NCBI GenBank assembly: GCA_019418305.1
Contig: DYCA01000003.1
Span: 48,396-95,151, forward strand
Origin: Clostridiales bacterium
Lineage (GTDB): Bacteria; Bacillota; Clostridia; Oscillospirales; Butyricicoccaceae
Length of the DNA stretch: 46,756 bases
Direction: 5' to 3'
The notes beneath the pieces are model-generated. The model searched no databases and was not told the origin of the DNA. It saw nothing but the letters and a program-made list of their open reading frames with translations. Made by a program: the position numbers and the translations under genes. Positions 10,197-26,656 of the stretch are shown piece after piece. Numbering within the stretch: the stretch's first letter is position 1; every line of letters begins with the position of its first letter.

Positions 10197-10310
10197 ATGA
10201 CTAACACGAAGAATGGTTCTAATCAGGGTATGGTTCCGGAAGCACGCGCTGCAATGGATCGCTTTAAGATGGAGGCGGCAGCCGACCTTGCTGTCTCTTC
10301 TCCATCTTAA
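10197..10310 (+). pseudogene. 5' part of an alpha/beta-type small acid-soluble spore protein gene, split by the element
   Basis: A good ribosome site (AAAGGAG, 10181-10187) precedes ATG 10197. The first 29 codons end in PEARAAMDRFKMEAAA, the conserved N-terminal helix of alpha/beta SASPs, which coat and protect spore DNA. From codon 30 the frame enters the inserted element, gains eight foreign codons and stops (TAA 10308-10310), giving a 37-aa truncated product without the second DNA-binding helix. The missing half, starting with GVNLKQGYNGDLTSRQ, lies 16.4 kb away at 26655-26783 in the same orientation. Joining them at GA gives a 71-aa SASP with no gap or frameshift. Confidence 0.95.
10284..10309 (+). 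repeat. left attachment junction (attL): GA core plus left attP arm
   Basis: The core dinucleotide GA is at 10284-10285. The 24 bases inward (10286-10309, ending CCATCTTA) match the inverted copy at 26631-26654 at 17 of 24 positions, including an unbroken CCATCTTA at the far end. To the left is SASP coding sequence (attB half). Two-base GA cores are known for the TnpX/TndX group of serine recombinases. Confidence 0.85.
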
Positions 10311-10347
10311 TCCATCTAACCACACTACATACCGGCTCACACCCCCT

Positions 10348-10386
10348 AAACGGCCGCCCCCTACTTTTACGGGAGACGGCCGTTTT
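10348..10386 (+). terminator. probable intrinsic terminator inside the element's left end
   Basis: The stem AAACGGCCG/CGGCCGTTT with a 20-base loop is followed by TTTTCTG. It would stop transcripts entering from the split SASP gene. In the reverse direction it lies just past the stop of the minus-strand remnant, but with a poorer T-run. Confidence 0.6.
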
Positions 10387-10420
10387 CTGTTCCCATGCTA
10401 TTTTTATAGAGACGCAACGT

Positions 10421-10627
10421 TTATTCTTCCGCACGCACGCAGACAATATAGCTTTCACCATTCTCCAGATTGCAGTTGGTGGTGTTTCCCGGAAAAATTT
10501 TCACATCCACCGAACAAGTTGTACCCTCACGGATGGATTCTTCGCTCGGTGTCTACTCCACGGATACTTTACAGTCCCATCCAATACCGTCTCCGTCCGG
10601 ACTGTTTGTGTATTGTAGCAGAATTTG
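10421..10627 (-). pseudogene. remnant of an unrecognised minus-strand protein gene
   Basis: The minus strand reads a protein-like segment containing YTNSPDGDGIGWDCKVSVE, an in-frame TAG (10553-10555), then TPSEESIREGTTCSVDVK, a GNTTNCNLENGESYIV stretch and a TAA at 10421-10423. The composition (polar, alternating beta-like, Cys and Asn rich) looks like the end of a secreted or beta-sandwich protein, but I do not recognise a family. There is no ATG or ribosome site, and upstream sequence is taken by the response-regulator promoter. It is probably a decayed gene end trapped at the element's left end. It could also be chance open frame. Confidence 0.4.
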
Positions 10628-10629
10628 TT

Positions 10630-10658
10630 TTGCGGAATGGGGAGAAATTTGGTATAAT
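10630..10658 (+). promoter_or_regulatory. sigma-A promoter of the two-component system
   Basis: TTGCGG (10630-10635) and TATAAT (10653-10658) are 17 bp apart, with a TGG extension before the -10 box, 55 bp ahead of the response-regulator start. Confidence 0.75.
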
Positions 10659-10712
10659 ACTGCACATCAGAATTCCAAATACCGCCTTGGCGAGGAAAGG
10701 ACGGGGACTGCT

Positions 10713-11993
10713 ATGGCTAAATCATTATACTCGGTGATTGTCGCAGACGATGAGGATGAATTAAGGGAAGCAGTATGTACCATGATTCCCTGGGAGGAGT
10801 ACGGTTTCCGTCTAGTGGGGAGCGCCAGCAATGGACTGGATGCTCTGCAGATGGTGGAGGAATGTGAGCCTGACCTGCTGCTCACCGATATCCGGATGCC
10901 CTTCATTTCAGGCATTGAGCTTGCCCGACAGGTGCGCGAAATTCGACCTGCCACCAATATTGCTTTTCTCAGCGGTTATGACGATTTTGAATACGCCAAA
11001 CAGGCAATTCAATATAACATCATCAGCTACATGCTCAAGCCTTTGACCATGGAGGGGTTGAGTAAGGAGCTGCAAAATATCCGGCAGAAGATTGACACCC
11101 AGTTCGCCATGTTCCGGCAATCCTCCCCCAATCCCAGCGGACTGGACCTGCAGACTGCAATGCTGATGCCTCTGGTACTGGATGACTACGCTGAGCCGGA
11201 TGGTGAGCCGCGGGCGAAGGCTTATGCACGGCAGTGCGGCCTGCTGCGGGATATGGAGGATCGGCCCCACTATATTGTGATGGTATCCACCCTGCTGGAA
11301 GCAGACGGAGGCAACTGCACGCCCCCCTCCTTTGTCGCGTCTGTCAATCGACTGGCAACAAAATACCTGCGCGGCGCGCATTTTTTTGCTTCCGGCAAAG
11401 TGATTTCCGTGCTGCTGGGCAATCCATCTGATTTTGACAAATATCTTCACATCCTGGCGGACGAAATCCCTCAAATGGCTGATCGTGTGCTGGGCAAATG
11501 CTGCCGCATCGGCATCAGCCGCACAACACGGAATTTGACCGCCCTCCACGACGCGTATCGGGAGGCAATGGAGGCTCTTCGTCAGGGCGACCGCATGGAA
11601 AGCGGCGCACAGTTCATCAGCGACCTGTCTCCGTCCGTCAAGGGGGGCGAACTGCTGTGCAAGCGGGCCATGGAGGCACTCAACCAGCACTACATGGATG
11701 CCGACCTTTCTCTGGTATCGCTCAGCGGGATGCTGACCGTCAGCCCCAATCATCTTTCCACCTGCATCAAAAAATATGCCGGCGAAACCTTCATCAACAT
11801 TCTCATCCGCAAGCGGATGGAAGCCGCCCGCGAACTGCTGATATCCTCCCCACTCAAGATTCAGGAGATTGCCCAGCGGTGCGGCTATACCGACCAGCAC
11901 TACTTCAGCTACTGCTTTAAAAAATACTGCGGCGAATCCCCCAGCACAATGCGCCGCAGGCTGGATCGGGAAAAGGCAGGTGAGCAGCCGTGA
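10713..11993 (+). CDS. YesN-type response regulator (receiver + AraC-type DNA-binding domain)
   Basis: This is a cytoplasmic transcription factor. The 426-aa protein starts with a receiver domain: acidic pocket ADDEDE (residues 11-16), phospho-acceptor Asp59 in LLLTDIRMP, and Lys109 in MLKPL. A middle linker of about 200 residues follows, then a C-terminal AraC/XylS double helix-turn-helix (about 325-420: LSLVSLSGMLTVSPNHLST, IQEIAQRCGYTDQHYFSYCF). The start at ATG 10713 has an AAAGGA ribosome site upstream. The kinase gene overlaps its end by 4 bp (GTGA), so the two are a cognate pair. Position and cargo imply that it activates the mglBAC operon in response to galactose; direct repeats upstream of mglB are candidate binding sites. 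Confidence 0.93.
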   Translation: MAKSLYSVIVADDEDELREAVCTMIPWEEYGFRLVGSASNGLDALQMVEECEPDLLLTDIRMPFISGIELARQVREIRPATNIAFLSGYDDFEYAKQAIQYNIISYMLKPLTMEGLSKELQNIRQKIDTQFAMFRQSSPNPSGLDLQTAMLMPLVLDDYAEPDGEPRAKAYARQCGLLRDMEDRPHYIVMVSTLLEADGGNCTPPSFVASVNRLATKYLRGAHFFASGKVISVLLGNPSDFDKYLHILADEIPQMADRVLGKCCRIGISRTTRNLTALHDAYREAMEALRQGDRMESGAQFISDLSPSVKGGELLCKRAMEALNQHYMDADLSLVSLSGMLTVSPNHLSTCIKKYAGETFINILIRKRMEAARELLISSPLKIQEIAQRCGYTDQHYFSYCFKKYCGESPSTMRRRLDREKAGEQP

Positions 11994-13708
11994 AGGACGG
12001 CGTTTCCCGCACAGGGCTGCGCATTACCACCATTCTGGTCTCCATGGTGCTGGGCGTGGTGGCAGTCATCCTGTGCAGCAGCATTCTTCTTTTTCTCAAC
12101 CGCTACCGCAGCGCCATGGTGCAGAGCGCCCTTACCAGCAGCGACCAGGCGGTTTCACAGGTTTCCAACACGGTCGGCAACTATCTGCAAAGCATGGAGC
12201 AGGCCATGTCTCTGGTGGAATGGTCCCTGCTGGAAAGCGCCGACAACCGAAACCAGCTTCTGGATGCCTTTCTGACCTTCCGCCCGGATGTGGTAGCGGT
12301 GACAAGCTACTCACCTTCCGGTAAGATGCTGGACTGCTGGTGTCTTGATCGAGAGCCTCGCGAAGTCATTTATCAAAACCTTTCCTTCAATCTGGACCGT
12401 GCACGCGCCTCAGGCGGCGCCTATATGACCGCCCCTCACGTGGAAAGTATTTTCGAAGGCTATTATCCCTGGGTGGTGACCATGACCGTGCCGCTGGAGT
12501 CAGGCAACCAGACGGCCTGGGTATCGCTCGACCTGAGCTTTTCCAGCATCTCCACCTACATCAACAACGTCAGCATCGGCCAGCGCGGCTACTGCTTTCT
12601 CATGGACAAAGAAGGCAACATCGTTTACCATCCCCAGCAGCAGCTGCTGTACGCGGGGCTGAAATCGGAGGACACCACCTCTCTGTCCGCCTTAGCAGAC
12701 GGCGCCTATGTCAATGATACCGTGATTTATTCCGTCACCAGCGTGGCGGATAGCGACTGGCGCATCGTGGGCGTCAGTTATGTGGATGAGATGGTCAACC
12801 GCAGCTTCCGGGAAATGATTCGTCTCTCCCTTGCACTGGGCGTGGTGATGCTCGCAGCAGCGGTGTTGACAAGCTTTCTCCTCTCCCGGCTGCTGGCCCG
12901 CCCGCTCCGCGGTCTGGCCGACGCCATGGAGAGTTTTGAAACCGATGCAGACCACTTTACCTATCTGCCTGTAGGCGGCACCCGTGAGGTGCAGGAGTTA
13001 TCCAGCTCCTTCGAGCATATGGTACTGCGTATCCAGCGTCTGATGACCACTGTGCGAGAGGAGGAAATCAACCTTCGCAAAACCGAGTTGAAAGCGCTGC
13101 AGGCGCAAATCAACCCTCACTTTTTATACAACACGCTGGATTCCATCGCATGGATGTGCGAGCAGGGCCGCAATGACGACGCGGTAAAAATGATTCATGC
13201 TCTGGCCAGGCTGTTTCGCATCAGCATCAGCAAAGGACATGAGCTCATCCCCATTGCCAAAGAAATCGAGCATGCGGAAAGCTATCTTCAAATCCAGAAA
13301 TACCGCTATAAAAACCAGTTTACCTATGAATTCGATGTGGACCCTGCGTGTCTGAACTATTACTGCAACAAGATAACCCTCCAGCCCATTATCGAAAACG
13401 CCATCAACCATGGCCTTGACCTACGGGTGGATGAGGGCCGCATTACCGTGCAGGTGCGACAGGACGGAGAGGACATTGTATTCGACGTCCGCGACAACGG
13501 CGTAGGCATGAGCGACGAGCTGATTCAGTCCATTTTACAGCGCGGACCGGAGGACCGCACCGGCATCGGCATTCGAAATGTCAACGACCGGCTGCAAATC
13601 TATTTTGGCAAGCAGTATGGCCTGCATATCAGCAGCGAGCCGGATGTGGGAACCTGTGTGGAAATTCGCATGCCTAAGATACAGGAGGGAGATTATGAGA
13701 CGAAATAG
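11990..13708 (+). CDS. YesM-type membrane sensor histidine kinase
   Basis: The 572-aa protein starts at GTG 11990 inside the stop region of the regulator gene. Layout: TM1 (about 11-33), extracytoplasmic dCache-like sensor (about 38-272), TM2 (about 277-300), HAMP (about 300-350), His_kinase domain with LQAQINPHFLYNTLDSIAWM (phospho-acceptor His377), and an HATPase domain with NHGLD, VRDNGVGM and GIGIRNVNDRL. It is the LytS/YesM subfamily, which pairs with AraC-type regulators. The sugar-binding lipoprotein gene starts inside its last codons (14-bp overlap), so the sensor probably reads sugar through that protein, as described for XylFII-LytS in Clostridium. The gene ends in TAG, a stop not used by any chromosomal gene in this window. 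Confidence 0.93.
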   Translation: MKDGVSRTGLRITTILVSMVLGVVAVILCSSILLFLNRYRSAMVQSALTSSDQAVSQVSNTVGNYLQSMEQAMSLVEWSLLESADNRNQLLDAFLTFRPDVVAVTSYSPSGKMLDCWCLDREPREVIYQNLSFNLDRARASGGAYMTAPHVESIFEGYYPWVVTMTVPLESGNQTAWVSLDLSFSSISTYINNVSIGQRGYCFLMDKEGNIVYHPQQQLLYAGLKSEDTTSLSALADGAYVNDTVIYSVTSVADSDWRIVGVSYVDEMVNRSFREMIRLSLALGVVMLAAAVLTSFLLSRLLARPLRGLADAMESFETDADHFTYLPVGGTREVQELSSSFEHMVLRIQRLMTTVREEEINLRKTELKALQAQINPHFLYNTLDSIAWMCEQGRNDDAVKMIHALARLFRISISKGHELIPIAKEIEHAESYLQIQKYRYKNQFTYEFDVDPACLNYYCNKITLQPIIENAINHGLDLRVDEGRITVQVRQDGEDIVFDVRDNGVGMSDELIQSILQRGPEDRTGIGIRNVNDRLQIYFGKQYGLHISSEPDVGTCVEIRMPKIQEGDYETK

Positions 13709-14666
13709 ATGGGGCTCTGTATGGGCAGCTATGCTTTGCGTACTGCTGTGCGGCTGCTCCACCAGCACCGACTACTCCCGACAGCACACGGTAGCGCTGG
13801 TGGCCAAGTCCACGCAGACAGAGTTCTGGCTGTCTGTTTTTGCCGGAGCGGAGGCTGCCGCCACAGAATACAATCTCAAGCTCACCATCATTGGCCCGAA
13901 CACCGAAGAGGATTACGAAACACAGAATCAAATGGTGTCCGATGCGGTAAACGAAGGGGCGGAAGCCATCGTATTTTCTGCCATTGACTACGAAAACAAC
14001 GCTGCTGCAATTGATGCTGCCGCCCAAAACGGCGTCAAAATCGTAGCCATTGACAGTAACGTGGATTCCGAAGCAGTGAGCACCTATATCGGCACCGATA
14101 ACTACGCCGCCGGACAGATGGCGGCGCAGGCAGCGCTTGAACGGGTAAAAACCCCGCTGAGGGTCGGCATCGTCAATTATGACATCAGCAGCGCGAACGG
14201 TCAGGAGCGCGAACGGGGTGCGGTAGATACTTTTGCCGCCAGCGACCGGGCCGAGGTCGTCAGCGTTATCAACACACTGGCGGAGGCGGGCCACGCCAAA
14301 ATGGACACCATCGCTCTGCTGACAACCCACCCGGAAATCAATGTGCTGCTCGCCTTCAATGAGCCTACCAGCGTGGGCGCAGCACAGGCAGTAGAACAGA
14401 TGGGGCTTTCCGAAACGGTTTTTCTGGTGGGCTTTGACTCCAACGTAGCCACCGTGGACGGCCTGCAGGAAGGCTCGGTTGATGCCCTTATTGTGCAGAA
14501 CCCTTATGCCATGGGCTATCTGGGTGTGGAAAGCGCCTATAAGCTGCTCGCCGGGCAAGCCGGCGGTATGGAACGCATCGTGGACACCTCGACTCAGATT
14601 GTGGACCGGAACAACCTTTTTGATGTAGACAGTCAAAAGGCTCTGTTCGCTTTTGACAGCCGCTGA
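13695..14666 (+). CDS. sugar-binding lipoprotein, probable co-sensor of the two-component system
   Basis: This is a periplasmic-binding-protein fold of the ribose/galactose type (Peripla_BP_4), 323 aa, exported and lipid-anchored. The N-terminus MRRNRWGSVWAAM is followed by a lipobox ending at Cys21. The mature part opens HTVALVAKSTQTEFW and has family marks such as AIVFSAIDYE, GVKIVAIDSNVDS and YIGTDNYAAGQ. The ATG at 13695 (GGAGGG upstream) overlaps the kinase stop by 14 bp. Because it is coupled to the kinase and separated from the transporter by its own terminal region and the mgl promoter, I infer a sensing rather than a transport role. MglB supplies the transport function. Its ligand (galactose, glucose or methyl-galactoside) is not readable from sequence. 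Confidence 0.85.
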   Translation: MRRNRWGSVWAAMLCVLLCGCSTSTDYSRQHTVALVAKSTQTEFWLSVFAGAEAAATEYNLKLTIIGPNTEEDYETQNQMVSDAVNEGAEAIVFSAIDYENNAAAIDAAAQNGVKIVAIDSNVDSEAVSTYIGTDNYAAGQMAAQAALERVKTPLRVGIVNYDISSANGQERERGAVDTFAASDRAEVVSVINTLAEAGHAKMDTIALLTTHPEINVLLAFNEPTSVGAAQAVEQMGLSETVFLVGFDSNVATVDGLQEGSVDALIVQNPYAMGYLGVESAYKLLAGQAGGMERIVDTSTQIVDRNNLFDVDSQKALFAFDSR

Positions 14667-14697
14667 ATTGTGAAATATGCACAATTTAAAGATTTAA

Positions 14698-14731
14698 AAA
14701 TTTCATTTTATAATAAATTTCAATGAAATTT
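14698..14731 (+). repeat. AT-rich direct and inverted repeats upstream of mglB, candidate regulator sites
   Basis: AAATTTCA occurs at 14698-14705 and again at 14715-14722, 17 bp apart in the same orientation. In addition, AAATTTCATT (14698-14707) and AATGAAATTT (14722-14731) form a perfect 10-bp inverted repeat. The block lies 26-59 bp upstream of the -35 box of the mgl promoter, a normal place for AraC-type activator sites. A weak hairpin ending the lipoprotein transcript is the alternative reading. Confidence 0.45.
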
Positions 14732-14756
14732 ACCCCTTCTTCGGTGATTTTTTACC

Positions 14757-14785
14757 TTGTTTTTCCGTATTGTTTCCCATACAAT
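14757..14785 (+). promoter_or_regulatory. promoter of the mgl-gal operon
   Basis: TTGTTT (14757-14762) and TACAAT (14780-14785) are spaced by 17 bp, 67 bp ahead of mglB. The imperfect -35 and the AT-rich repeats just upstream fit an activated promoter. Confidence 0.65.
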
Positions 14786-14852
14786 GAAAACAAGCAGGAA
14801 GGAACTTCTGAAGAATATCCCTTCCAACTAAAAGGAGAAAAGGAGAATCATT

Positions 14853-16136
14853 ATGAAGAAAAAGGTACTCGCGCTTACCCTGGCTGCTGCGATGATGGCC
14901 AGCATGGCGGCTTGCTCTTCGGGCGGCAACAATTCGGATACGACGCAGAACAACAGCGGTACGGAAGCAGCAGAAGTTGCCAACAAGGATAAGCCCTTAG
15001 TATGGTTCAACCGTCAGCCCTCCAACAGCTCCACCGGCGAGTTGGATATGACCGCTCTGAACTTCAACGAAAACACTTACTACGTAGGCTTTGACGCTAA
15101 CCAGGGCGCTGAGCTGCAGGGCACCATGATTCTGGACTACGTAAAGGCTAACATTGACACCATCGACCGCAACGGCGACGGCATCATCGGCTATGTACTC
15201 GCTATCGGCGATATCGGCCACAACGACTCCATCGCCCGTACCCGCGGTGTCCGCGCGGCTCTCGGCACTGCCGTTGAAGCCAACGGCGCTATCAACAGCG
15301 ACCCCGTAGGCAGCAATGCAGACGGCTCCGCTACCGCTGTTAAGGACGGCTCTCTGGAAGTCAACGGCAAGACCTACATTGTCCGTGAGCTGGCTTCTCA
15401 GGAAATGAAGAACTCCGCTGGTGCAACTTGGGATGCTGCTACCGCCGGCAACGCGATCGGCACCTGGGCTTCCTCTTTCGGTGACCAGATCGATATCGTA
15501 GCTTCTAACAACGACGGCATGGGCATGTCCATGTTCAACGCTTGGTCCAAGGCCAACAATGTTCCGACCTTCGGTTATGACGCTAACGCTGACGCGGTTG
15601 CAGCCATCGCAGAAGGCTACGGCGGCACCATCAGCCAGCATGCTGACGTTCAGGCTTACCTGACCCTCCGCGTACTGCGCAACGCACTGGACGGCGTGGA
15701 TATCGACACCGGTATCGGCACTGAGGATGACGCCGGCAACGTGCTGAGCGACGACGTTTACTACTACGACGAGTCCGCTCGCTCCTACTACGCTCTGAAC
15801 GTAGCAGTTACCAAGGACAACTACACCGACTTCACCGACTCCACCAAGGTTTACGCGCCGGTCAGCAATCAGCTGGATGCTTCCGCTCATCCGGAAAAGA
15901 GCGTATGGCTGAACATTTACAACGCTGCTGATAACTTCCTCAGCGCTACTTACCAGCCGCTGCTGCAGAACTATGACGACCTGCTCAACCTGAAGGTAGA
16001 GTACATCGGCGGCGACGGCCAGACCGAGGCCAACATCACCAACCGTCTGAGCAACCCGAGCGCGTACGATGCTTTCGCCATCAACATGGTTAAGACCGAC
16101 AACGCAGCTTCCTACACTGCTCTGCTGAATCAGTAA
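14853..16136 (+). CDS. mglB: galactose/methyl-galactoside ABC transporter, substrate-binding lipoprotein
   Basis: It is the extracellular galactose/glucose receptor of the Mgl importer. The 427-aa protein has a lipoprotein signal (lipobox MAAC, Cys21), then a Gly/Asn/Ser linker, then the MglB fold. DRNGDG (about residue 107) resembles the calcium-binding loop region of this family. NNDGMGMSM (about 219) and FGYDANADAVAAI (about 241) line the sugar cleft and hinge. It is about 100 residues longer than enterobacterial MglB, as is usual in Clostridia, with an insert around residues 100-180. The ATG at 14853 has AAAAGGAG upstream. The gene is followed by a nested hairpin before mglA, which may keep the mglB message more abundant than the rest. 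Confidence 0.92.
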   Translation: MKKKVLALTLAAAMMASMAACSSGGNNSDTTQNNSGTEAAEVANKDKPLVWFNRQPSNSSTGELDMTALNFNENTYYVGFDANQGAELQGTMILDYVKANIDTIDRNGDGIIGYVLAIGDIGHNDSIARTRGVRAALGTAVEANGAINSDPVGSNADGSATAVKDGSLEVNGKTYIVRELASQEMKNSAGATWDAATAGNAIGTWASSFGDQIDIVASNNDGMGMSMFNAWSKANNVPTFGYDANADAVAAIAEGYGGTISQHADVQAYLTLRVLRNALDGVDIDTGIGTEDDAGNVLSDDVYYYDESARSYYALNVAVTKDNYTDFTDSTKVYAPVSNQLDASAHPEKSVWLNIYNAADNFLSATYQPLLQNYDDLLNLKVEYIGGDGQTEANITNRLSNPSAYDAFAINMVKTDNAASYTALLNQ

Positions 16137-16185
16137 TTCGGATTCGAACACTTTTCAAGCGAAACAATAGGTAACAAGCCAATGT

Positions 16186-16256: not shown

Positions 16257-16334
16257 CTGTTTTTCCAAGGAAACCGGAGCGGATCGCTTGGGTCCGCCCA
16301 ATCTGGCAATATTGCATAAACGGGAGTAACGAGA

Positions 16335-17843
16335 ATGACAGATGCAAAAAACGATATTGTCCTGTCAATCCGCGGCATGAGTAAATCCTTTGGCCGTAAC
16401 CGAGTGCTCGATCACATCAATCTGGATGTCAAGCGCGGAACGGTCATGGGACTGATGGGCGAAAACGGCGCCGGCAAGTCCACGATGATGAAGTGCCTGT
16501 TCGGCACCTATCAGAAGGACGAAGGAAAGATCTTTTTGAACGGCAAGGAGATCAGCTTCTCCGGCCCTAAGGACGCCCTGGAGAACGGAATCGCCATGGT
16601 GCATCAGGAACTCAACCAATGTCTGGAACGCAACGTGATCGACAACCTGTTTCTGGGCCGGTACCCCACCAATTCCGTGGGCATGGTCGACGAAGGCAGG
16701 ATGAAAAAGAAAGCTTCGGAACTGTTCCGCAAGCTGGGTATGACGGTCAACCTGACCCAACCTATGCGGAACATGTCCGTTTCCCAACGACAGATGTGCG
16801 AAATCGCCAAAGCAATTTCCTACAACTCGCAGGTGATTGTTCTGGATGAACCCACCTCCTCCCTCACGGTGCAGGAGGTAGATAAACTCTTTGAAATGAT
16901 GCGGATGCTGAAGGAGCAAGGCATTGCTCTCATCTATATCTCGCATAAAATGGATGAAATCTTTGAAATTTGTGACGAGATTTCCGTACTTCGCGACGGC
17001 AATCTGGTCATGACCAAACCCTCGCAGGACACCAACATGAACGAGCTTATCACCGCCATGGTAGGCCGCTCTCTGGAGAGCCGCTTCCCCCCGGTCAACA
17101 ACACACCGGGAGACACGATTTTGTCGGTGCAGCACCTCTCCACCAAGTACGCGCCCCATCTTCAGGATATATCCTTTGATGTAAGGGAAGGCGAGATTTT
17201 CGGCTTGTACGGTCTGGTGGGCGCCGGGCGCACCGAGCTGCTGGAAACGATTTTCGGTGTTCGGACACGCGTTGCCGGTCGTGTCTATTTCAAGAACCGT
17301 CTGATGAATTTCAGCAGCGCCAGAGAGGCAATCGAGCACGGCTTCGCCATGATTACCGAGGAGCGCAAGGCCAACGGACTGTTCCTCAAGTGTGACCTCA
17401 CCTTTAACACAACCATTGCAAATCTGAATCAGTACAAGAGCGGCCTTGCCTTGTCTGATGCACAGATGGTAAAAGCCACCAACAAGGAAATCAAGATCAT
17501 GCATACCAAATGCATGGGCCCCGACGATATGATTTCCAGCCTGTCCGGCGGCAACCAGCAAAAGGTCATCTTCGGCAAGTGGCTGGAACGGGAACCTCAA
17601 GTCTTTATGATGGACGAACCCACTCGAGGCATCGACGTGGGTGCCAAATATGAGATTTACGAGCTGATCATCAATATGGCCAAGCGCGGCAAGACTATCA
17701 TCGTCGTCTCTTCCGAAATGCCCGAGATCCTCGGCATCACCAACCGTATCGGCGTTATGTCCAACGGACATCTCTCCGGCATTGTCAACACCAAAGAGAC
17801 CGATCAGGAAGAGCTTTTGCGGCTTAGCGCAAAATACCTGTAG
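16335..17843 (+). CDS. mglA: galactose/methyl-galactoside ABC transporter, ATP-binding protein
   Basis: It is the energising subunit, two fused ABC domains on one 502-aa chain at the inner membrane face. Domain 1 has a Walker A GENGAGKST (residues 42-50), the signature-like MSVSQRQMCEIAKA and Walker B VIVLDEPTS. Domain 2 has the degenerate GLVGAGRTE in place of Walker A, the signature LSGGNQQK and FMMDEPTRGIDVG. That asymmetry is normal for ribose/galactose importers. The ATG at 16335 is preceded by GGGAG. The gene ends in tandem TAG TAG, 15 bp before mglC. Order B-A-C matches the classical mgl operon. Confidence 0.95.
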   Translation: MTDAKNDIVLSIRGMSKSFGRNRVLDHINLDVKRGTVMGLMGENGAGKSTMMKCLFGTYQKDEGKIFLNGKEISFSGPKDALENGIAMVHQELNQCLERNVIDNLFLGRYPTNSVGMVDEGRMKKKASELFRKLGMTVNLTQPMRNMSVSQRQMCEIAKAISYNSQVIVLDEPTSSLTVQEVDKLFEMMRMLKEQGIALIYISHKMDEIFEICDEISVLRDGNLVMTKPSQDTNMNELITAMVGRSLESRFPPVNNTPGDTILSVQHLSTKYAPHLQDISFDVREGEIFGLYGLVGAGRTELLETIFGVRTRVAGRVYFKNRLMNFSSAREAIEHGFAMITEERKANGLFLKCDLTFNTTIANLNQYKSGLALSDAQMVKATNKEIKIMHTKCMGPDDMISSLSGGNQQKVIFGKWLEREPQVFMMDEPTRGIDVGAKYEIYELIINMAKRGKTIIVVSSEMPEILGITNRIGVMSNGHLSGIVNTKETDQEELLRLSAKYL

Positions 17844-19588: not shown

Positions 19589-19617
19589 GTTACACTTACT
19601 GAAAAAAGATGTATACT
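19589..19617 (+). promoter_or_regulatory. possible internal promoter before galK
   Basis: GTTACA (19589-19594) and TATACT (19612-19617) are separated by 17 bp, 54 bp ahead of the galK ATG. The -35 match is modest, so galKETM may also depend on readthrough from mgl. Confidence 0.4.
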
Positions 19618-19671
19618 GTTTTTTGAAAGCAGCGCCTCGGTCTGCCGAGGCCAAAAGGAGTGAATACAACC

Positions 19672-20958
19672 ATGCAAAAATTAGGCGATGTACGCCGTGC
19701 ACTGGATGCCGGAGAGCTAAACGAGCCGCTGTCTCAACTGTTGTATGATGATCTGGCAGCCGCCCGACAGCGTATAGCAAAATTACTGGATGAATTTCAG
19801 AAAACCTTTGGCATCGGAGACGACGCAGCCGTAGCTCTGTGCTCCGCCCCCGGCCGCACAGAGATTGGCGGCAACCATACCGACCATCAGCACGGCCGTG
19901 TTCTGGCCGGTGCGGTCGATTTGGACTTTTTGGCATGTGCCAGCCCGAACGGCACCAACACCATCCGTTTCCAGTCCGAGGGCTGGCCGATGGTAGAGGT
20001 CGTGCTGGATACACTCGACCCCAAGGAGGAAGAAAAAGAAAGCACCGCAGCACTGGTGCGCGGTATGGCGGCTCAGGCCGCACAGAAGGGCTATACCGTA
20101 GCCGGTTTTGATGTGTATGCCACATCCAACGTGCTGCCCGGCTCCGGCCTGTCCTCCTCTGCGGCATGTGAGGTTCTGTTGGGCGTGATTGAGAATCATC
20201 TGTTCTGCGAGGGCAAACTCGACCCGGTAACGATTGCCCAGATGGGTCAGAAGGCCGAAAATGTGTATTTCGGCAAGCCCTGCGGACTGATGGATCAGAC
20301 TGCTTCCTCGGTTGGAGGCGCTGTAACCATCGACTTTGCCGATCCTGCTGCTCCGGTTGTTCGGGCGCTGAAGGTGGATTTGGACAGCCTTGGTTATGCC
20401 TTGTGCATCATCGACTGCGGTGCGGACCACGCCGATCTGACAGACGAATACGCCGCAGTCCCCAGAGAAATGAAAACTGTTGCTGCTTTCTTCGGCAAGG
20501 AGGTGCTGCGCGAGGTGAAGGAAGCCGACGTACTCGGCAATCTGCCCGCGCTGCGCAAAGCGGTGGGAGACCGTGCTGTACTTCGCGCGCTGCATTTTCT
20601 GGCCGACAACGAGCGGGTAGCCAAGCAGGCGGACGCACTGGCCAATGGCGATATGGACAGCTTCCTTGCACTGGTCAACGAATCCGGCCATTCCTCCTGG
20701 GAACAGCTGCAGGACATCACCCCGGCCGGTGCTGTACAGGAACAGTCCATGGCAGTTGCGCTCACGGTGGCACAGCGCGCGCTGAACGGCCGCGGTGCCT
20801 GCCGCGTACACGGCGGCGGCTTTGCCGGAACCATTCAGGCTTTTGTCCCGCTGGACATTCTCGAGGCGTTCCGCAGTGAGATCGAAGGCGCGCTGGGTGC
20901 CGGCTGCTGTCACGTGCTGCGGATTCGACCGGTTGGCGGCACGGTTCTCTGGTCCTAA
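19672..20958 (+). CDS. galK: galactokinase
   Basis: It phosphorylates alpha-galactose at C1 with ATP, the entry to the Leloir pathway, in the cytoplasm. The 428-aa GHMP kinase shows the galactokinase signature APGRTEIGGNHTDHQHG (about residue 58), the ATP-binding PGSGLSSSAACE (about 157) and MDQTASSVGG (about 207). The C-terminal GHMP motif GRGACRVHGGGFAG is near residue 372. I start at ATG 19672 because AAAAGGAG lies 11 bp upstream; an in-frame GTG at 19660 would overlap that site. It has about 50 extra N-terminal residues before the signature, as in several Clostridia galactokinases. It is first in the galK-galE-galT-galM run. Confidence 0.96.
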   Translation: MQKLGDVRRALDAGELNEPLSQLLYDDLAAARQRIAKLLDEFQKTFGIGDDAAVALCSAPGRTEIGGNHTDHQHGRVLAGAVDLDFLACASPNGTNTIRFQSEGWPMVEVVLDTLDPKEEEKESTAALVRGMAAQAAQKGYTVAGFDVYATSNVLPGSGLSSSAACEVLLGVIENHLFCEGKLDPVTIAQMGQKAENVYFGKPCGLMDQTASSVGGAVTIDFADPAAPVVRALKVDLDSLGYALCIIDCGADHADLTDEYAAVPREMKTVAAFFGKEVLREVKEADVLGNLPALRKAVGDRAVLRALHFLADNERVAKQADALANGDMDSFLALVNESGHSSWEQLQDITPAGAVQEQSMAVALTVAQRALNGRGACRVHGGGFAGTIQAFVPLDILEAFRSEIEGALGAGCCHVLRIRPVGGTVLWS

Positions 20959-20999
20959 ATAATACAACTGCTTTGATGTGAAAGGAGCGCATCTGTAAC

Positions 21000-21992
21000 A
21001 TGGCAATTTTAGTGCTGGGCGGAGCCGGTTATATCGGATCCCATACCGTATATGAGCTGATTGACGCAGGCCGGGAGGTTGTGGTAGCCGACAATCTGCA
21101 AACCGGTTTCCGTGCTGCGGTTCATCCGAAAGCAAAATTCTATGAGCTGGATATTCGAGACAAGAAAGCGCTCGATACCCTGTTTGAGGCCGAGAAAATT
21201 GACGGCGTTATCCATTTCGCCGCCTCCTCTCAGGTTGGAGAATCCATGTCTGACCCGCTGAAGTATTACGACAACAATCTCCACGGCACCATGGTGCTTC
21301 TCCAGTCCATGGTGGCGCACGGCATCGACAAAATTGTTTTCTCCTCCACCGCCGCAACCTACGGCGAGCCGGAGCGTGTGCCGATTCTGGAGGACGACCC
21401 CACCTGCCCCACCAACTGCTACGGCCAGACCAAGCTGGATATGGAGCACATGATGGGCTGGGTATCCCGGGCGCATGGTCTGAAGTATGTGGCGCTGCGG
21501 TATTTCAACGCCTGCGGCGCGCATGCCTCCGGTCAAATTGGCGAGGCACATAATCCGGAAACCCATCTGATTCCACTTATCCTACAAGTACCCTTGGGCC
21601 AGCGTGAGATGATCAGCGTGTTCGGTGACGATTACCCGACCAAGGACGGCACCTGTATTCGTGACTACATCCATGTCACCGACCTTGCACAGGCTCACAT
21701 TCTGGCGCTGGATTACCTGATGAACAGCGGCGAAAACAACGTATTCAATCTGGGCAACGGTGTAGGCTTCTCTGTCAAGGAAGTCATCGATGTGGCCCGT
21801 GAAGTCACCGGCCATCCGATTCCCGCCAAAATGGCCCCCCGTCGAGCCGGCGATCCGGCGCAGCTCATCGCCTCCTCGGAAAAGGCCGTCAAAGTGCTGG
21901 GCTGGAAGCCCGAATACAATGACCTGTCCACCATTGTGGCCTCCGCCTGGACCTGGCACAAGAGCCACCCCCATGGCTATACGGAGGGTTGA
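21000..21992 (+). CDS. galE: UDP-glucose 4-epimerase
   Basis: It interconverts UDP-galactose and UDP-glucose, regenerating the UDP-sugar used by GalT. The 330-aa extended short-chain dehydrogenase has the NAD motif GGAGYIGSH (residues 7-15), the SSTAATYGEP segment (active Ser/Thr 116-117) and the catalytic YxxxK at Tyr141/Lys145 (CYGQTKLD). RYFNACGAH lies near 170. The ATG at 21000 has a strong AAAGGAG site. It follows galK by 41 bp and its stop lies 2 bp before the galT ATG, so translation is coupled. Confidence 0.97.
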   Translation: MAILVLGGAGYIGSHTVYELIDAGREVVVADNLQTGFRAAVHPKAKFYELDIRDKKALDTLFEAEKIDGVIHFAASSQVGESMSDPLKYYDNNLHGTMVLLQSMVAHGIDKIVFSSTAATYGEPERVPILEDDPTCPTNCYGQTKLDMEHMMGWVSRAHGLKYVALRYFNACGAHASGQIGEAHNPETHLIPLILQVPLGQREMISVFGDDYPTKDGTCIRDYIHVTDLAQAHILALDYLMNSGENNVFNLGNGVGFSVKEVIDVAREVTGHPIPAKMAPRRAGDPAQLIASSEKAVKVLGWKPEYNDLSTIVASAWTWHKSHPHGYTEG

Positions 21993-21994
21993 GC

Positions 21995-23491
21995 ATGGAA
22001 CGTGACACAGCCATTACCATGCTGGTGACCTATGCACTGCGCAAAGGTCTTATCCAGCCCTGTGAGAAAACCTGGGCGACAAACGCTCTGCTGGGAGTAC
22101 TTAAACTGGACAGTTACACGCCCCCTGAGACAGAAATGCCGGAGGACATTGACCTTCCTACCGTGCTCGACGCCCTCATGGATGACGCCCATGCGCGGGG
22201 CGTTTTGGAGGAAAACTCCATCGTATACCGTGATCTGTTTGACACCGCGCTAATGGGCGTGCTCACCCCCCGTCCTGCACAGGTCATCGACACATTCCAG
22301 TCTCTGCGTCAGGAAAGTCCGCAAAAAGCGACCGATTGGTATTACCGCTTCAGTCAGGATACCAACTATATCCGCCGCGACCGCATCGCAAAGGACGTGC
22401 AGTGGAAGGCTCCCACCGACTACGGTGAGCTGGACATCACCATCAACCTGTCCAAGCCGGAAAAGGATCCCAAGGCCATTGCCGCGGCCCGTAACATGCC
22501 TGCTTCAGCCTATCCTCGCTGTCTGCTGTGCGCGGAAAACGAGGGATATGCCGGCAGAGTCAATCACCCCGCTCGACAGAACCATCGCATCGTTCCCATT
22601 ACCATCAACGATTCGCCATGGTTTTTGCAATACTCTCCCTATGTGTATTACAATGAGCACTGCATCTGCTTCAATGCGGTTCACACCCCGATGAAAATCG
22701 ACCGGGCGTGCTTTGCCAAGCTGCTGGACTTTGTGGGGCAGTTCCCGCATTATTTCGTAGGCTCTAACGCCGATCTGCCCATTGTAGGCGGCTCTATTCT
22801 GGCGCATGACCATTTTCAGGGCGGACGGTACACCTTCGCCATGGAGAAAGCGCCGATAGAGACCCCCTTCACCTTCCCCGGCTATGAGGACGTGCAGGCA
22901 GGCATCGTCAAATGGCCGATGTCGGTCATTCGCATCACCGCCTGTGAGCCCCAGCGGCTGATTGACTTGGCCGACCGCATCCTGACCTTGTGGCGCGGCT
23001 ACACCGACGAGAGCGCGGTCATCTATGCGGAAACAGACGGTGAACCGCACAACACCATCACCCCCATTGCCCGCCGTCGCGGCAGCGACTACGAGCTGGA
23101 TCTGGTGCTGCGCAACAACCTCACCACCCCCGAGCATCCCTTGGGGCTGTATCATCCACACGCAGAACTCCACCACATCAAGAAAGAGAATATCGGCCTT
23201 ATCGAAGTGATGGGGCTGGCTGTCCTCCCCGCCCGTCTCAAAACCGAGCTGGCTGCTGTAGCACAGAAACTGGTCTCCGGTGATGACTTGGAGGCCGACC
23301 CCCTCACCGCTTCCCACGCCAGCTGGGCCATGGGCTTCCGGGACAAATATCAGCTCACCGCAAACAATGCGCTGGACGCGGTATATAAGGAGACTGGTTT
23401 AGTCTTTGCCAAGGTACTGGAGCATGCCGGCGTATATGCCCGCACGCCCGAAGGCAAAGAAGCCTTCCTTCGTTTCTTAAGGCAGGTGTAA
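21995..23491 (+). CDS. galT: galactose-1-phosphate uridylyltransferase (class II, Firmicutes type)
   Basis: It transfers UMP from UDP-glucose to galactose-1-phosphate. The 498-aa protein is the long Gram-positive class II GalT. It carries NHPARQNHRIVPITI and DSPWFLQYSPYVYYNEHC, with the catalytic histidine triad-like motif His271-Asp-His273-Phe-Gln275 (AHDHFQGG). The C-terminal domain (FHAP-like LYHPHAELHHIKKENIGLIEV) follows. I chose ATG 21995 because GGAGGG sits at the right distance; a TTG six bases earlier overlaps galE and is less likely. The gene runs into galM with 3 bases between stop and start. Confidence 0.95.
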   Translation: MERDTAITMLVTYALRKGLIQPCEKTWATNALLGVLKLDSYTPPETEMPEDIDLPTVLDALMDDAHARGVLEENSIVYRDLFDTALMGVLTPRPAQVIDTFQSLRQESPQKATDWYYRFSQDTNYIRRDRIAKDVQWKAPTDYGELDITINLSKPEKDPKAIAAARNMPASAYPRCLLCAENEGYAGRVNHPARQNHRIVPITINDSPWFLQYSPYVYYNEHCICFNAVHTPMKIDRACFAKLLDFVGQFPHYFVGSNADLPIVGGSILAHDHFQGGRYTFAMEKAPIETPFTFPGYEDVQAGIVKWPMSVIRITACEPQRLIDLADRILTLWRGYTDESAVIYAETDGEPHNTITPIARRRGSDYELDLVLRNNLTTPEHPLGLYHPHAELHHIKKENIGLIEVMGLAVLPARLKTELAAVAQKLVSGDDLEADPLTASHASWAMGFRDKYQLTANNALDAVYKETGLVFAKVLEHAGVYARTPEGKEAFLRFLRQV

Positions 23492-23494
23492 GAT

Positions 23495-24532
23495 ATGACA
23501 GAATTCATGCGGCAGCCCTTCGGCGTAACCGCTGACGGACAGGCTGTGGAACAATGGACTATGCGCGCGGGCCAGTATGTCGCTCAGGTGCTTACCTGCG
23601 GCGGCGTGCTGCGCTCCTTTACCGTCCCTTCTCCCGACGGCAGCCGGGACATTGTGCTGGGATATAACAGCTTGGCCGAGTATGAGGCGCAGGACAAATA
23701 TTTGGGGGCATTAGTCGGGCGCGTGGCCAATCGTATTGGCGGCGCAGCCTTCGACCTGAACGGCGTCCACTACCCGTTGGCTGCCAACAACGGCCCCAAC
23801 TGTCTCCATGGAGGTTCTCGCGGTTTTGACCGGGCGGTGTGGAAGGCGCAGGTTGAAAACAGCACCTTAGTGCTCACCCATATCAGTCCGGCGGGAGAAG
23901 AGGGTTTCCCAGGTACACTGGAAGTAAAGGTGACCTACTCCCTCACCGTTGACGGCGTACTCTCGTTGGATTATCAGGCAAAAAGCGATGCCGATACCCT
24001 ATGCAACCTGACCAACCACAGCTATTTCAATCTGCTGGGACACGCCTATGGCTCACTGGAGGGGCAGCAGGTCGAAATCCGGGCAGATGCTATCACCGAA
24101 ACCGATGCCGACAGCACCCCTACCGGCGTCCTGCTGCCGGTGGAAGGAACTCCTTTCGATTTACGTTCTCCTCGAGACTTTCTGCAGGGACTGGCGATGG
24201 AACATCCTCAGCTGACGCTGGGCAACGGATACGACCACAATTTTGTGCTGCGCACCGAACCGGTCTCCCCGCTGGAACCGGTTGCATGGGTCACCGGCGG
24301 CGGTCTGTGTCTGGAGTGCTGCACCACCCAGCCCGGTTTGCAGCTCTACACAGCCAACTATCTGGACGGCAGCCCCGGCAAAGAAGGCGCCAGCTACGGA
24401 CCGCGCTCGGCATTCTGTCTGGAAACCCAGGCTTGGCCGGACGCCATCCACCATCCGAATTTTCCCTCTGTCGTGCTTCTGGCAGGAGAAACGTATCACC
24501 ATACCACGACTTACCGCGTAACCATGACCTGA
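23495..24532 (+). CDS. galM: aldose 1-epimerase (mutarotase)
   Basis: It converts beta- to alpha-galactose, the form GalK accepts. The 345-aa beta-sandwich protein has the conserved NRIGGAAFDLNG, the PNCLHGG motif (first active His about residue 108) and NHSYFNLLGH with catalytic His175. GNGYDHNFVL and GLQLYTANYLDG lie near the C-terminus, and the general base Glu lies in FCLETQAWPDAIHHPNFPS. The ATG at 23495 follows galT by 3 bp. A strong terminator follows, ending the galactose cargo. Confidence 0.95.
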   Translation: MTEFMRQPFGVTADGQAVEQWTMRAGQYVAQVLTCGGVLRSFTVPSPDGSRDIVLGYNSLAEYEAQDKYLGALVGRVANRIGGAAFDLNGVHYPLAANNGPNCLHGGSRGFDRAVWKAQVENSTLVLTHISPAGEEGFPGTLEVKVTYSLTVDGVLSLDYQAKSDADTLCNLTNHSYFNLLGHAYGSLEGQQVEIRADAITETDADSTPTGVLLPVEGTPFDLRSPRDFLQGLAMEHPQLTLGNGYDHNFVLRTEPVSPLEPVAWVTGGGLCLECCTTQPGLQLYTANYLDGSPGKEGASYGPRSAFCLETQAWPDAIHHPNFPSVVLLAGETYHHTTTYRVTMT

Positions 24533-24560
24533 TTGCATCAAGAGCAATCAGGTAACAACA

Positions 24561-24611
24561 ACAAACCGGGATACTGCAACATATTATGTTGCGGTGTCCC
24601 GGTTGTTTTTT
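24561..24611 (+). terminator. intrinsic terminator after galM
   Basis: The long stem ACAA(A)CCGGGA...GCAACA pairs with TGTTGC...TCCCGGTTGT around the loop TATTA, with one bulged A. It is followed by a seven-base T tract. It insulates the recombinase region from the galactose operon. Confidence 0.93.
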
Positions 24612-24696
24612 ATGCTCCTTACGATGTATCGCTCGATTTAAAAAGGAATAAAAATGTGCTTTATGACGCAAATTACCACAAAAAGGAGGTACTTTT

Positions 24697-24897
24697 ATGA
24701 ACACCACAACGCATACGGCCTATGGAATTCTCCCCGTCACTGCACGGGGAACACAGACCTGCATCGGTGCGGGCACATTTGTCGTCAGCCGGCAATTTGT
24801 TGGCAGCGTCCCGGCCTGTGACTTGCTTCGACAGCGCATGCAGCAAACCGCACACACAACATCATCCATTGACGAGCGAATCGGCACTGCGGTATAA
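24697..24897 (+). CDS. small 66-aa protein, possibly TnpW-like, encoded beside the recombinase
   Basis: A near-perfect ribosome site (AAAAGGAGGT) sits six bases before the ATG, so this is very probably a real gene. The product, 66 aa, has no membrane segment. Its centre, IGAGTFVVSRQFVGSVPACDLLRQ, loosely recalls the small TnpW family (a short strand pattern followed by a helix with L/R spacing) that lies just upstream of tnpX in Tn4451-type elements. The similarity is by eye and weak. Position and size also fit a recombination directionality factor, which large serine recombinases need for excision. The recombinase promoter lies inside its last codons, and no clear promoter of its own is seen in 24612-24696. 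Confidence 0.6.
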   Translation: MNTTTHTAYGILPVTARGTQTCIGAGTFVVSRQFVGSVPACDLLRQRMQQTAHTTSSIDERIGTAV

Positions 24898-24898
24898 T
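24869..24898 (+). promoter_or_regulatory. strong sigma-A promoter of the recombinase gene
   Basis: TTGACG (24869-24874) and TATAAT (24893-24898) are spaced by 18 bp and are located in the end of the small ORF. The predicted transcript starts near 24905, only about 30 bases before the recombinase ATG. Confidence 0.8.
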
Positions 24899-24909
24899 CG
24901 ACTGGTGAG

Positions 24910-24944
24910 CCGGTTCTGAAAGGAGCATATCATATGAGAACCGG
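24910..24944 (+). promoter_or_regulatory. inverted repeat enclosing the recombinase ribosome site and start codon
   Basis: CCGGTTCT (24910-24917) and AGAACCGG (24937-24944) are exact complements. The 19 bases between them contain the AAAGGAG site (24919-24925) and the ATG (24934-24936). In RNA this would be a 5'-end hairpin holding the ribosome site in its loop. In DNA it could be an operator just downstream of the promoter. Either would limit recombinase synthesis. Confidence 0.6.
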
Positions 24945-26607
24945 TAATTTAAAACTTGTTTTTGCCTATCTTCGTCTTTCCAATGAGGAAGCACGAAGCG
25001 GCGAATCCTCCAGTATTGCAAACCAGAGACAGATGATTCAGGACTATTGCCAACGCCACAACATCACACTTGTGCGGGAATTTGTGGATGACGGCTATTC
25101 CGGCGGCAATTTTGACCGTCCAGCGTTTCAGAACATGCTGCAGCAGCTGCATGACGGCAAGGCCAACATGGTTATCACCAAGGATCTATCCCGTCTGGGG
25201 CGCGATATGCGCGAATCCAGTTACTATGCCGAGCAATTCTTTCCGGAGCACGGCATCCGCTATCTGACCATTGCGGACAACTTCGACACCGCTCACGAAA
25301 ACGTCATGGCACCGTTCCAATTCGCCATGAACGAAGTCTATCTGCGGGACGGCTCACGCAAGGTCAAGGACGTGCTGCGCAGCAAGCGGGAAAACGGACA
25401 GTACTGTGCCTGCCCACCCTATGGCTACCGCAAAGACCCTGCGGATAAAAATCGTCTTACTCCCGATGCGCAGACTGCCCCCATCGTGCAGCGCATTTTC
25501 GAACGAGCGGCCGCCGGAGATTCCTCGCGCAAAATTGCGCTCGACTTGAATGCGGACGGCGTCATCCCGCCGCTCAAATACCGCGTACTGTTCCGCGATG
25601 ATTTCAGTCCGGAGGGCGCGGCGCGCGCCTCTGATCTGTGGAACTACACCACAGTCAAGCGTATCCTGAAAAACCCGGTCTACCTCGGGCATACCATGCT
25701 CGGCAAAAGCCGCAAGGTCAGTGTCAAATCCAAAAAGAAGGTCGCAGTTCCCCAAAGCGAGTGGGCGGTCACACGTGACACGCACCCTCCCCTGATTGCT
25801 TCGCTGCTTTACGAGCAGGCACAGCGCAATCTGGGACGAGGGCGGCGCACCGCTCTCGCTCAGGATACTGTCCGAAAAAGCATCTTTTCGGGCATTGTAT
25901 TCTGTGCGCGGTGCGGTCATTCCCTCTGCTCCTGCGGTACGGTGTACAAGGGAGAACGGGAAAAGTACTGGTACCTGTCCTGCACCCATCAGCGCGGTGA
26001 CATTGCCAATCGCTGCGATGGCGTGCGCATCAAGTATGCCGACCTTATCGAAGTCGTGCGGCAGGATTTGAACACCCTGCTCGCACTGACCGATGCGCAA
26101 GCCGAGGCACTCGCCCGTGCGGCAGTCAAAAAAGAGCAATGCGCAAGTGAATATGCCGCACGGCAAGCCCGCTTGCAACAGGCACAGGCCCGCCTGCTGA
26201 CGATCGATAAAATTGTCACCAAGCTGTATACGGACAATGCCGAAGGTCGTTTAGACGATAACCGACTGACCCGCATGGTCGAAGCACTCGAACAGGAATC
26301 CGCCTCTCATCAGGCCGTCATCGCAGAGTTGTCGCATGCACTTCCAGGGCAGGAGGACACCGAAGAACGCTATCAACGTTTCTTTTTGCTGGCCAAACAG
26401 TGCAGCCACATTGACACACTTGACCGTGAAACGCTGCTCACCTTTATCGATCGCATCGAAGTCGGACCCAAGCAATTCGAAAACGGACTGCGCAAGGCGA
26501 CCCACCGCAACACTCCCTACCGTCAGGATATCCGCATCTTCTATCGTTTTATCGGTGAAATCAACATGGAAAACGAGCTGGAGTTGGAACAATCCTGCAA
26601 CTTCTGA
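24934..26607 (+). CDS. large serine recombinase (TnpX/TndX type), integrase/excisionase of the element
   Basis: It catalyses site-specific insertion and excision via a phosphoserine link at a 2-bp core. The 557-aa protein has the resolvase domain (about 8-155: AYLRLSNEE with nucleophile Ser16, DDGYSGGNFDRPAF, TKDLSRLGRD). The Recombinase domain follows (about 170-290: YGYRKDP, WNYTTVKRILKNPVYLG). Next are a zinc-ribbon (CARCGHSLCSC...CTHQRG...C, about 328-363), a coiled coil and a C-terminal segment (LTFIDRIEVGPKQ). The length is close to TndX of Tn5397 and shorter than TnpX. The ATG at 24934 has AAAGGAG at 8 bp. It lies at the extreme right end of the element, 23 bp from the attP arm, and by context it acts on the GA-core sites at 10284 and 26655. 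Confidence 0.95.
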   Translation: MRTGNLKLVFAYLRLSNEEARSGESSSIANQRQMIQDYCQRHNITLVREFVDDGYSGGNFDRPAFQNMLQQLHDGKANMVITKDLSRLGRDMRESSYYAEQFFPEHGIRYLTIADNFDTAHENVMAPFQFAMNEVYLRDGSRKVKDVLRSKRENGQYCACPPYGYRKDPADKNRLTPDAQTAPIVQRIFERAAAGDSSRKIALDLNADGVIPPLKYRVLFRDDFSPEGAARASDLWNYTTVKRILKNPVYLGHTMLGKSRKVSVKSKKKVAVPQSEWAVTRDTHPPLIASLLYEQAQRNLGRGRRTALAQDTVRKSIFSGIVFCARCGHSLCSCGTVYKGEREKYWYLSCTHQRGDIANRCDGVRIKYADLIEVVRQDLNTLLALTDAQAEALARAAVKKEQCASEYAARQARLQQAQARLLTIDKIVTKLYTDNAEGRLDDNRLTRMVEALEQESASHQAVIAELSHALPGQEDTEERYQRFFLLAKQCSHIDTLDRETLLTFIDRIEVGPKQFENGLRKATHRNTPYRQDIRIFYRFIGEINMENELELEQSCNF

Positions 26608-26630
26608 ATTAGCTTGTCCACACAACGTTT

Positions 26631-26656
26631 TAAGATGGTACAGGTACACCAAAGGA
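26631..26656 (+). repeat. right attachment junction (attR): right attP arm plus GA core
   Basis: The 24-base arm 26631-26654 (starting TAAGATGG) precedes the GA core 26655-26656. Its complement matches the left arm 10286-10309 at 17 of 24 positions, with no gap, so the reconstructed attP is a 50-bp imperfect palindrome centred on GA. From GA onward the sequence is SASP coding. The junction happens to create an AAAGGAGGT that looks like a ribosome site. Confidence 0.85.

Follow-up and report, generated by a model that had tools for sequence, protein, structure and literature searches.

An attachment-site-bounded element carrying a predicted galactose regulon splits a spore-protein gene in an Agathobaculum-like bacterium

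The locus

The window, that is, the whole stretch of 46,756 nucleotides analyzed here, derives from contig DYCA01000003.1 of a Clostridiales bacterium. In it, a gene for an alpha/beta-type small acid-soluble spore protein (SASP) of 71 codons is cut after codon 29 by an element of 16,371 bp, measured core to core, each end of which carries a single copy of the dinucleotide GA (Table 1). The left half of the gene matches PF00269 over its cutoff, and the two halves joined give a 71-amino-acid protein with 100% identity to the unbroken SASP of a relative, G009 (related genomes are numbered with G and loci with L). A first-pass annotation, made from the letters alone, had placed the two SASP fragments on the same strand about 16.4 kb apart, with a large serine recombinase at the right end and, between them, a regulator, a kinase, a lipoprotein, and Mgl-like and Gal genes, all on one strand. 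Each of these placements was upheld by the Pfam and NCBIfam matches and by the G009 protein. The protein encoded on the left flank shares 94 to 95% identity with those at loci L001 to L004, which are recorded as Agathobaculum, and by sequence the genome is nearest to that genus.

The recombinase scored over the Pfam cutoffs for all four of its domains (PF00239, PF07508, PF13408, and PF14287). Its best match among solved structures, covering the N-terminal domain, is TnpX, and it shares about 32% identity with TndX; this structure match and the GA core agree with the earlier assignment to the TnpX/TndX (Tn4451/Tn5397) type. Against its five nearest relatives the ratio of nonsynonymous to synonymous substitution rates is about 0.06 to 0.08. 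The hexamers and 18-bp spacing of its predicted promoter are identical in all nine elements; both promoters in Table 1 were predicted from the housekeeping consensus. A 66-amino-acid open reading frame (ORF) upstream of the recombinase was considered as a directionality factor and is not claimed as one, as its conserved 3' end overlaps the recombinase promoter and its frame is broken in G005. No match to the recombinase was found in viral contigs. Phage and plasmid collections held remote kin only (best identity, 50.8%, in an unannotated fecal phage contig), and a phage or plasmid origin is not supported.

Table 1. Features of the element and its boundaries in the window
Feature	Position	Strand	Basis or remark
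SASP codons 1-29 (5' half)	10197..10283	+	PF00269 (29.6 bits; cutoff 22); frame continues to stop at 10310
TTTAAGATGG, predicted zinc-domain motif, bacterial half-site (attB arm), 11 bp from GA core	10263..10272	+	5-bp rule (PMC3783163)
attL crossover dinucleotide GA	10284..10285	+	Element-end comparison
CCATCTTAA, inverted motif copy, element side of attL, 16 bp from GA	10302..10310	+	
CTACATACCGGCTCACA, left-end motif	10325..10341	+	In all nine elements with left end seen; one substitution in G005
Terminator-like hairpin	10348..10388	+	Found by eye
Predicted housekeeping promoter, galactose operon, TTGCGG-17-TATAAT	10630..10658	+	Housekeeping consensus
Response regulator, AraC-type DNA-binding domain	10713..11993	+	Pfam
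Histidine kinase (dCache, HAMP, His_kinase, HATPase_c)	11990..13708	+	Pfam
Sugar-binding lipoprotein, predicted sensor partner	13698..14666	+	PF13407, scored on longer ORF 13578-14666
MglB-like binding protein	14853..16136	+	NF011924, below cutoff
MglA-like ATPase	16335..17843	+	Best NF008215, below cutoff
MglC-like permease	17859..19514	+	PF02653
Galactokinase GalK	19660..20958	+	PF10509 over cutoff; below NCBIfam cutoffs
UDP-glucose 4-epimerase GalE	21000..21992	+	TIGR01179 over cutoff
GalT uridylyltransferase	21989..23491	+	TIGR01239 over cutoff
Aldose 1-epimerase GalM	23495..24532	+	NF008277 over cutoff; TIGR02636 below cutoff
66-amino-acid ORF, 5' of recombinase	24697..24897	+	Weak candidate directionality factor; no Pfam match
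Predicted housekeeping promoter of recombinase, TTGACG-18-TATAAT	24869..24898	+	Housekeeping consensus
Large serine recombinase, 557 amino acids	24934..26607	+	Resolvase, Recombinase, Zn ribbon, DUF4368; best solved-structure match TnpX
TTAAGATGG, motif on element side of attR, 16 bp from GA	26630..26638	+	
attR crossover dinucleotide GA	26655..26656	+	Element-end comparison
SASP codons 30-71 (3' half)	26655..26783	+	Joined reading, intact relatives

Predicted attachment sites

Read across the circle, the element ends (attP) form an inverted repeat consisting of TTAAGATGG, 16 bp, GA, 16 bp, and CCATCTTAA. Eight elements have both ends; in these, the two arms of the repeat agree at 17 to 22 of 30 positions, against about 7.5 expected by chance, and one-base variants of the motif occur in G002, G003, and G011. 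In the empty SASP site, TTTAAGATGG lies 11 bp to the left of GA, 5 bp nearer to the core than the attP motif; passages of PMC3783163 describe such a 5-bp offset between attP and attB for serine integrases. The attB motif is clear for the left arm and weak for the right, and both attP arms are clear. The ends fit the predicted attachment sites of a large serine integrase. Six matches to the attP pattern in viral contigs were set aside as chance, the flanking motif being absent from them.

Empty sites and a recurrent target codon in relatives

To define the sample, 19 genomes (G001 to G019) were taken from 80 loci as those at least 70% identical at the left-flank protein. One alpha/beta SASP gene, whole or in pieces, was found in each. 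An orthologous recombinase (83 to 90% identity) is present in eight of the 19, in every case ending just before SASP codon 30, and ptsI follows in seven of these eight. Nine genomes have an uninterrupted 71-codon SASP gene; empty sites, which the first-pass annotation had pointed to as a check, therefore exist, and at L014, L009, and L012 both flanking genes of the window are in place. The near relative G014 lacks the window-type recombinase and this galactose cluster. The remaining two genomes have a SASP gene cut at codon 60 (G007) and only the left half together with the element's left end (G010). As eight relatives share the junction between recombinase and SASP and nine of the 19 have an unbroken site, the arrangement in the window is not due to chance.

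A wider recombinase search took in 87 genomes from the family and 394 sampled across the order, with the top candidates per genome scored. Nine further recombinases with 51 to 68% identity were identified, eight of which adjoin the same SASP codon (the exception is L182), while none of the 22 loci with weaker recombinases (31 to 38% identity where listed) had a SASP gene within at most 1.5 kb on each side. That a SASP gene is the target of a TnpX/TndX-type recombinase bounding the insertion, as had been proposed, is borne out by the recurrent junction and the att sites. Recombinases with DUF4368 are described, in passages of PMC10083194, as typical of multi-targeting enzymes; the SASP-site branch looks site specific in the loci compared. 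A second SASP junction, near codon 60 and followed by similar foreign sequence, was observed at L150 (G007), L183 (G055), and L208 (G369), which suggests a second element family at that position.

Galactose genes and other cargo

The cargo of the window element comprises a two-component sensor with a sugar-binding lipoprotein, Mgl-like transport genes, and the galactose genes. GalE, GalT, and GalM each scored over one curated NCBIfam cutoff; MglB, MglA, and GalK were named from their best family match. We infer galactose as the substrate, an assignment well supported by the family matches, because the NCBIfam scores of these last three fall under the curated cutoffs. With its own predicted promoter and two-component sensor, the operon would work in the integrated state and independently of the spore gene. 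A hairpin of the AAACGG...CCGTTT type is common to the five galactose-bearing elements, and the hairpin sequence of the window is absent from G005, G011, and G018. No relaxase, mobilization, conjugation, or other transfer gene was recognized among the large plus-strand genes of the element, all of which were placed in other families (the scan did not take in every overlapping or small ORF), and no resistance gene was found in the window element. Outside the element, a T-box leader lies on the minus strand at 3248 to 3488 (125 bits).

The same codon is occupied by different cargo in different genomes. Core-to-core lengths are 16.4 kb in the window, 16.3 kb in G002, 16.1 kb in G004, 23.1 kb in G001, 23.2 kb in G003, 19.7 kb in G018, and 4.1 kb in G011. 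The galactose cluster lies inside the SASP-site element in five species (the window and G001 to G004); in G001 and G003 a transporter and a peptidase were additionally recognized by eye, and a large repeat-containing protein stands at the left of the G001 element, where G003 has an equally large gap. In G018 the element harbors type I restriction genes together with Rep-like and FtsK-type genes; in G011 it harbors a gene for a HipA-like protein that scored below the Pfam cutoff. By eye, the restriction region of G018 (L147 and L148) contains several specificity-type genes with a tyrosine-recombinase-like ORF between them. The ends of the G005 element were found on two contigs, the right with a MATE transporter and alaS and the left with a VanX-like dipeptidase, a kinase, and an ABC transporter; at L143 of this genome, the alanyl-tRNA synthetase gene is one MATE gene upstream of the SASP-site recombinase. 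Either an essential-type gene may lie inside this element or the region may be rearranged. In G008, chromosomal-looking DNA is present upstream of the recombinase and the left end was not found. Upstream of two of the more distant SASP-site recombinases, L219 (G223) and L217 (G102), the genes are defense-like by eye (reverse transcriptase, helicase, and an AbiE-like pair).

History of the galactose genes

Seven of the 19 genomes have the MglB of the cluster, at the SASP site in G001 to G004 and on other contigs in G005, G008, and G017. In G017 the cluster is certainly elsewhere and the SASP gene is intact. The galactose contig of G005 ends in galK, and in neither G005 nor G008 does a contig connect the cluster with the element; both clusters are likely to lie outside it. 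The neighbors of the cluster differ among these three genomes, and no recombinase was found on their cluster contigs among the matches listed. From the presence of the element family at the SASP site in G018, G011, G005, and G008, together with a cluster at another place in G017 and on contigs of its own in G005 and G008, we infer that the element came first and the cargo later.

Silent divergence between the window and G001 to G004 ranged from 0.27 to 1.06 for the cargo, from 0.41 to 0.74 for the flanks and DnaE (species marker W36713, recognized by eye), and from 0.64 to 1.46 for the recombinase. In the tree of the regulator, kinase, and lipoprotein genes, the five SASP-site clusters group together to the exclusion of G017, and a grouping of G017 with the window and G002 was rejected (approximately unbiased [AU] test, P = 0.0025). 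A clade of the five galactose-element species was not rejected by the chromosome data (AU test, P = 0.159). The cargo looks resident and old, not freshly moved, because its silent divergence is about that of chromosomal genes and the sensor genes form one clade. On the simplest reading, an element already resident in the common ancestor of the five species probably captured the cluster once, and vertical descent followed. G017 was considered as a proven case of excision and set aside: it is nested among the galactose-element species in the species tree, yet its placement as their sister is not rejected by the same test (P = 0.159), and it may thus never have had the element. Nor could one clean recombinase phylogeny be drawn, the species order being neither supported nor rejected (AU test, P = 0.073).

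Another GalT was found in seven of the 12 relatives without the cluster, and galK, galE, and galT occur together in the four of these seven that were retrieved (G009, G012, G014, and G018). With such a set, these relatives need not be nonusers of galactose, and the suggestion in the first-pass annotation that a nonuser would become a galactose user in one step remains unproven, since many cluster-free relatives have another GalT.

Selection on the split gene and sporulation context

Across the five species, the split SASP halves differ by 0 to 2 nonsynonymous and 2 to 12 synonymous changes (about 161 and 46 sites, respectively), and the N-terminal halves show no amino acid change. Neutrality would give about 3.5 times more amino-acid-changing than silent changes; with 17 changes, a rough count of the independent ones, and at most two of them amino-acid-changing, P is about 1e-8. 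Intact SASP genes served as a control and in 36 pairs gave 1 to 11.5 nonsynonymous and 11 to 30.5 synonymous differences; by this measure constraint is no weaker in the split genes than in intact ones. By eye, the upstream and terminator sequences of the split gene are also kept. This near-silent change suggests that the halves are at times rejoined by recurrent excision; this evidence is conclusive only if the insertion predates the separation of the species, and with an insertion of the age that the cargo tree implies, rejoining must take place at times.

SASP genes are forespore genes. In passages of PMC8270828, sspC is placed under SigG. SpoIVA was found in 15 of the 19 genomes, including G001, G008, G011, and G018, which have a split SASP gene. 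The gene for the forespore sigma factor itself, sigG, is complete in G016 and runs unbroken to codon 238 in G013, and in the other 17 genomes it was found in pieces only, both pieces in 15 and one in G008 and G019, with a break near codon 95. In G018 the pieces are about 112 kb apart (C2:296939-297232 and C2:408910-409398), and a 458-amino-acid serine recombinase adjoins the C-terminal piece in the three genomes read (G014, G018, and G017; L226, L227, and L230 are sigG loci). Almost only silent change separates the pieces in most pairs compared (one row, the C half of G005 and G004, was left out as misaligned by one residue), with 19 and 22 silent and no amino acid changes between the N-terminal pieces of two pairs, the latter being G001 and G003. 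Both pieces look to be under strong purifying selection. The sigma factor may thus be split or rearranging, and the Agathobaculum-like genus seems, on these comparisons, to retain selection on split forespore genes. Similarity in sigG also stops near codons 238 to 246 in L231 (G001), G003, G007, and L229 (G013), where a second site is possible.

Interpretation

The explanation that we favor, with considerable room for doubt, is that an att-bounded 16.4-kb element with a complete predicted galactose regulon was inserted into the SASP gene by its recombinase, captured its cargo later, and would still excise at times. The element's own recombinase would have inserted it through a crossover at the GA core, and the galactose genes would have been captured by an element already resident in SASP. 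Read from a conserved housekeeping-type promoter, the recombinase would by itself favor integration, and excision with a directionality factor would be most useful in cells that will soon need SASP.

Several observations weigh against this explanation. No circular form or rejoined attP was found in any of the 19 assemblies, and there is no convincing directionality factor, as the small ORF is frameshifted in G005 and exceeded in length by another frame in G008. Four of the seven nearest genomes, G002 to G005, yielded no SpoIVA. The element of G005 is not closed, and galactose genes could lie inside it; in addition, G017 and G005 fall among the five species in the low-support trees of the transport and Leloir genes, and the weak recombinase tree has G005 nearer to the window than G001 and G003. 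Silent divergence of the SASP gene is low (2 to 12 of 46 sites), and intact SASP genes elsewhere are conserved too. If insertions were recent and repeated, conservation of SASP would predate the split and say nothing on excision; the argument from selection would fall, but the recombinase must then be active. Finally, excision in the forespore would be inherited by the spore, unlike that in the mother-cell cases, and a return step is needed.

Such a return step is part of a bolder proposal, which we hold only tentatively: a reversible germ line element would leave SASP in the forming spore, persist there as a circle, and be reinserted by the constitutive integrase after germination.

At the other extreme, and to us no likelier, an old element would have broken SASP in lineages that no longer sporulate, with nothing ever restored. 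G002 to G005, in which SpoIVA was not found, may have lost sporulation or may simply be incompletely assembled; the sole SASP gene found is broken in eight genomes, and sigG is only in pieces in 17 of 19. A dead gene would hardly be expected to show almost only silent change with its upstream and terminator sequences kept, however, and the sigG pieces behave likewise. SpoIVA also persists in four genomes whose SASP gene is split.

A still-mobile galactose island, passing from cell to cell and converting its recipient in one step, is less probable again. The complete regulon between intact att sites, the intact and constrained recombinase, the empty sites in relatives, and the absence of both recombinase and cluster from the near relative G014 are all as this proposal would have them. 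Of the mobile galactose element proposed in the first-pass annotation, the whole regulon between att sites stands; a second att-bounded copy at another site, with the same ends, was not seen in the 19 genomes searched. The lack of a recognized transfer gene, the chromosome-like divergence of the cargo, a sensor-gene clade consistent with one event, and the presence in many relatives of another GalT, which in the genomes retrieved stands with galK and galE, also speak against the island. An assembly or binning artifact, or chance juxtaposition through chromosomal rearrangement, is very improbable even though most relatives are metagenome assembled, the ends of G005 are on two contigs, and G008 is without a left end: as a full explanation it is refuted because the same junctions recur in numerous assemblies made independently, among them G018 with its single 3.2-Mb contig, and they obey serine-integrase geometry. 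A resident element that took up its galactose cargo and would still excise at times remains our preferred account.

Comparison with known systems

The window element resembles Tn4451/Tn4453 (TnpX) and Tn5397 (TndX) in having a large serine recombinase at one end and a GA core; for Tn5397, passages of PMC4430133 describe a central GA in the target and GA as the fixed core in Bacillus subtilis. It differs from that family in having no recognized mobilization or conjugation gene and no resistance gene, and in occupying one fixed SASP codon with metabolic cargo. Cargo other than resistance is found in Tn6104, a Tn4453-related element within Tn6103 of Clostridioides difficile, which carries a two-component system and an ABC transporter (PMC4430133, in part). 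Tn6104 is nested in a conjugative transposon, and no sugar-utilization set is mentioned for it in those passages.

A region for N-acetylgalactosamine and galactose use offers a parallel for the cargo, in a species which we take to be Faecalibacterium prausnitzii. The region is present in some gut strains and absent from others, and is called likely mobile in passages of PMC10808065. The main text of that source does not contain the words recombinase or integrase, and no spore-gene target appears in those passages.

In the splitting of a sporulation gene by a serine-recombinase element, the window resembles skin (sigK), SPbeta (spsM), and gin (gerE), of which gin is a nonphage element in a 225-bp gene (passages of PMC5595907). 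Excision of these three has been demonstrated experimentally, within the mother-cell program for sigK and gerE, whereas for the window element it is a proposal. Unlike the hosts of skin and gin, which belong to the terminal mother cell, SASP is probably a forespore gene, and the cargo is a sugar regulon. Among the matches listed, no report of a SASP gene as target, of a forespore case, or of galactose cargo on such elements was found in the open literature. If SASP is restored in spores, it would be the first forespore gene known to us to be handled in this way, and one would have to ask how an element of this kind persists within the genome of the spore. Were the element a reversible one of the germ line, a metabolic island and a spore gene would alternate at one locus, and programmed gene splitting would be carried beyond the terminal mother cell into the forespore genome, which is inherited. 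With one spore-gene codon as a dock for interchangeable cargo, the locus provides a fixed place where the exchange of cargo can be followed, and it joins two separate topics, the serine-integrase elements that split sporulation genes and the mobile or semimobile sugar genes of gut Firmicutes.

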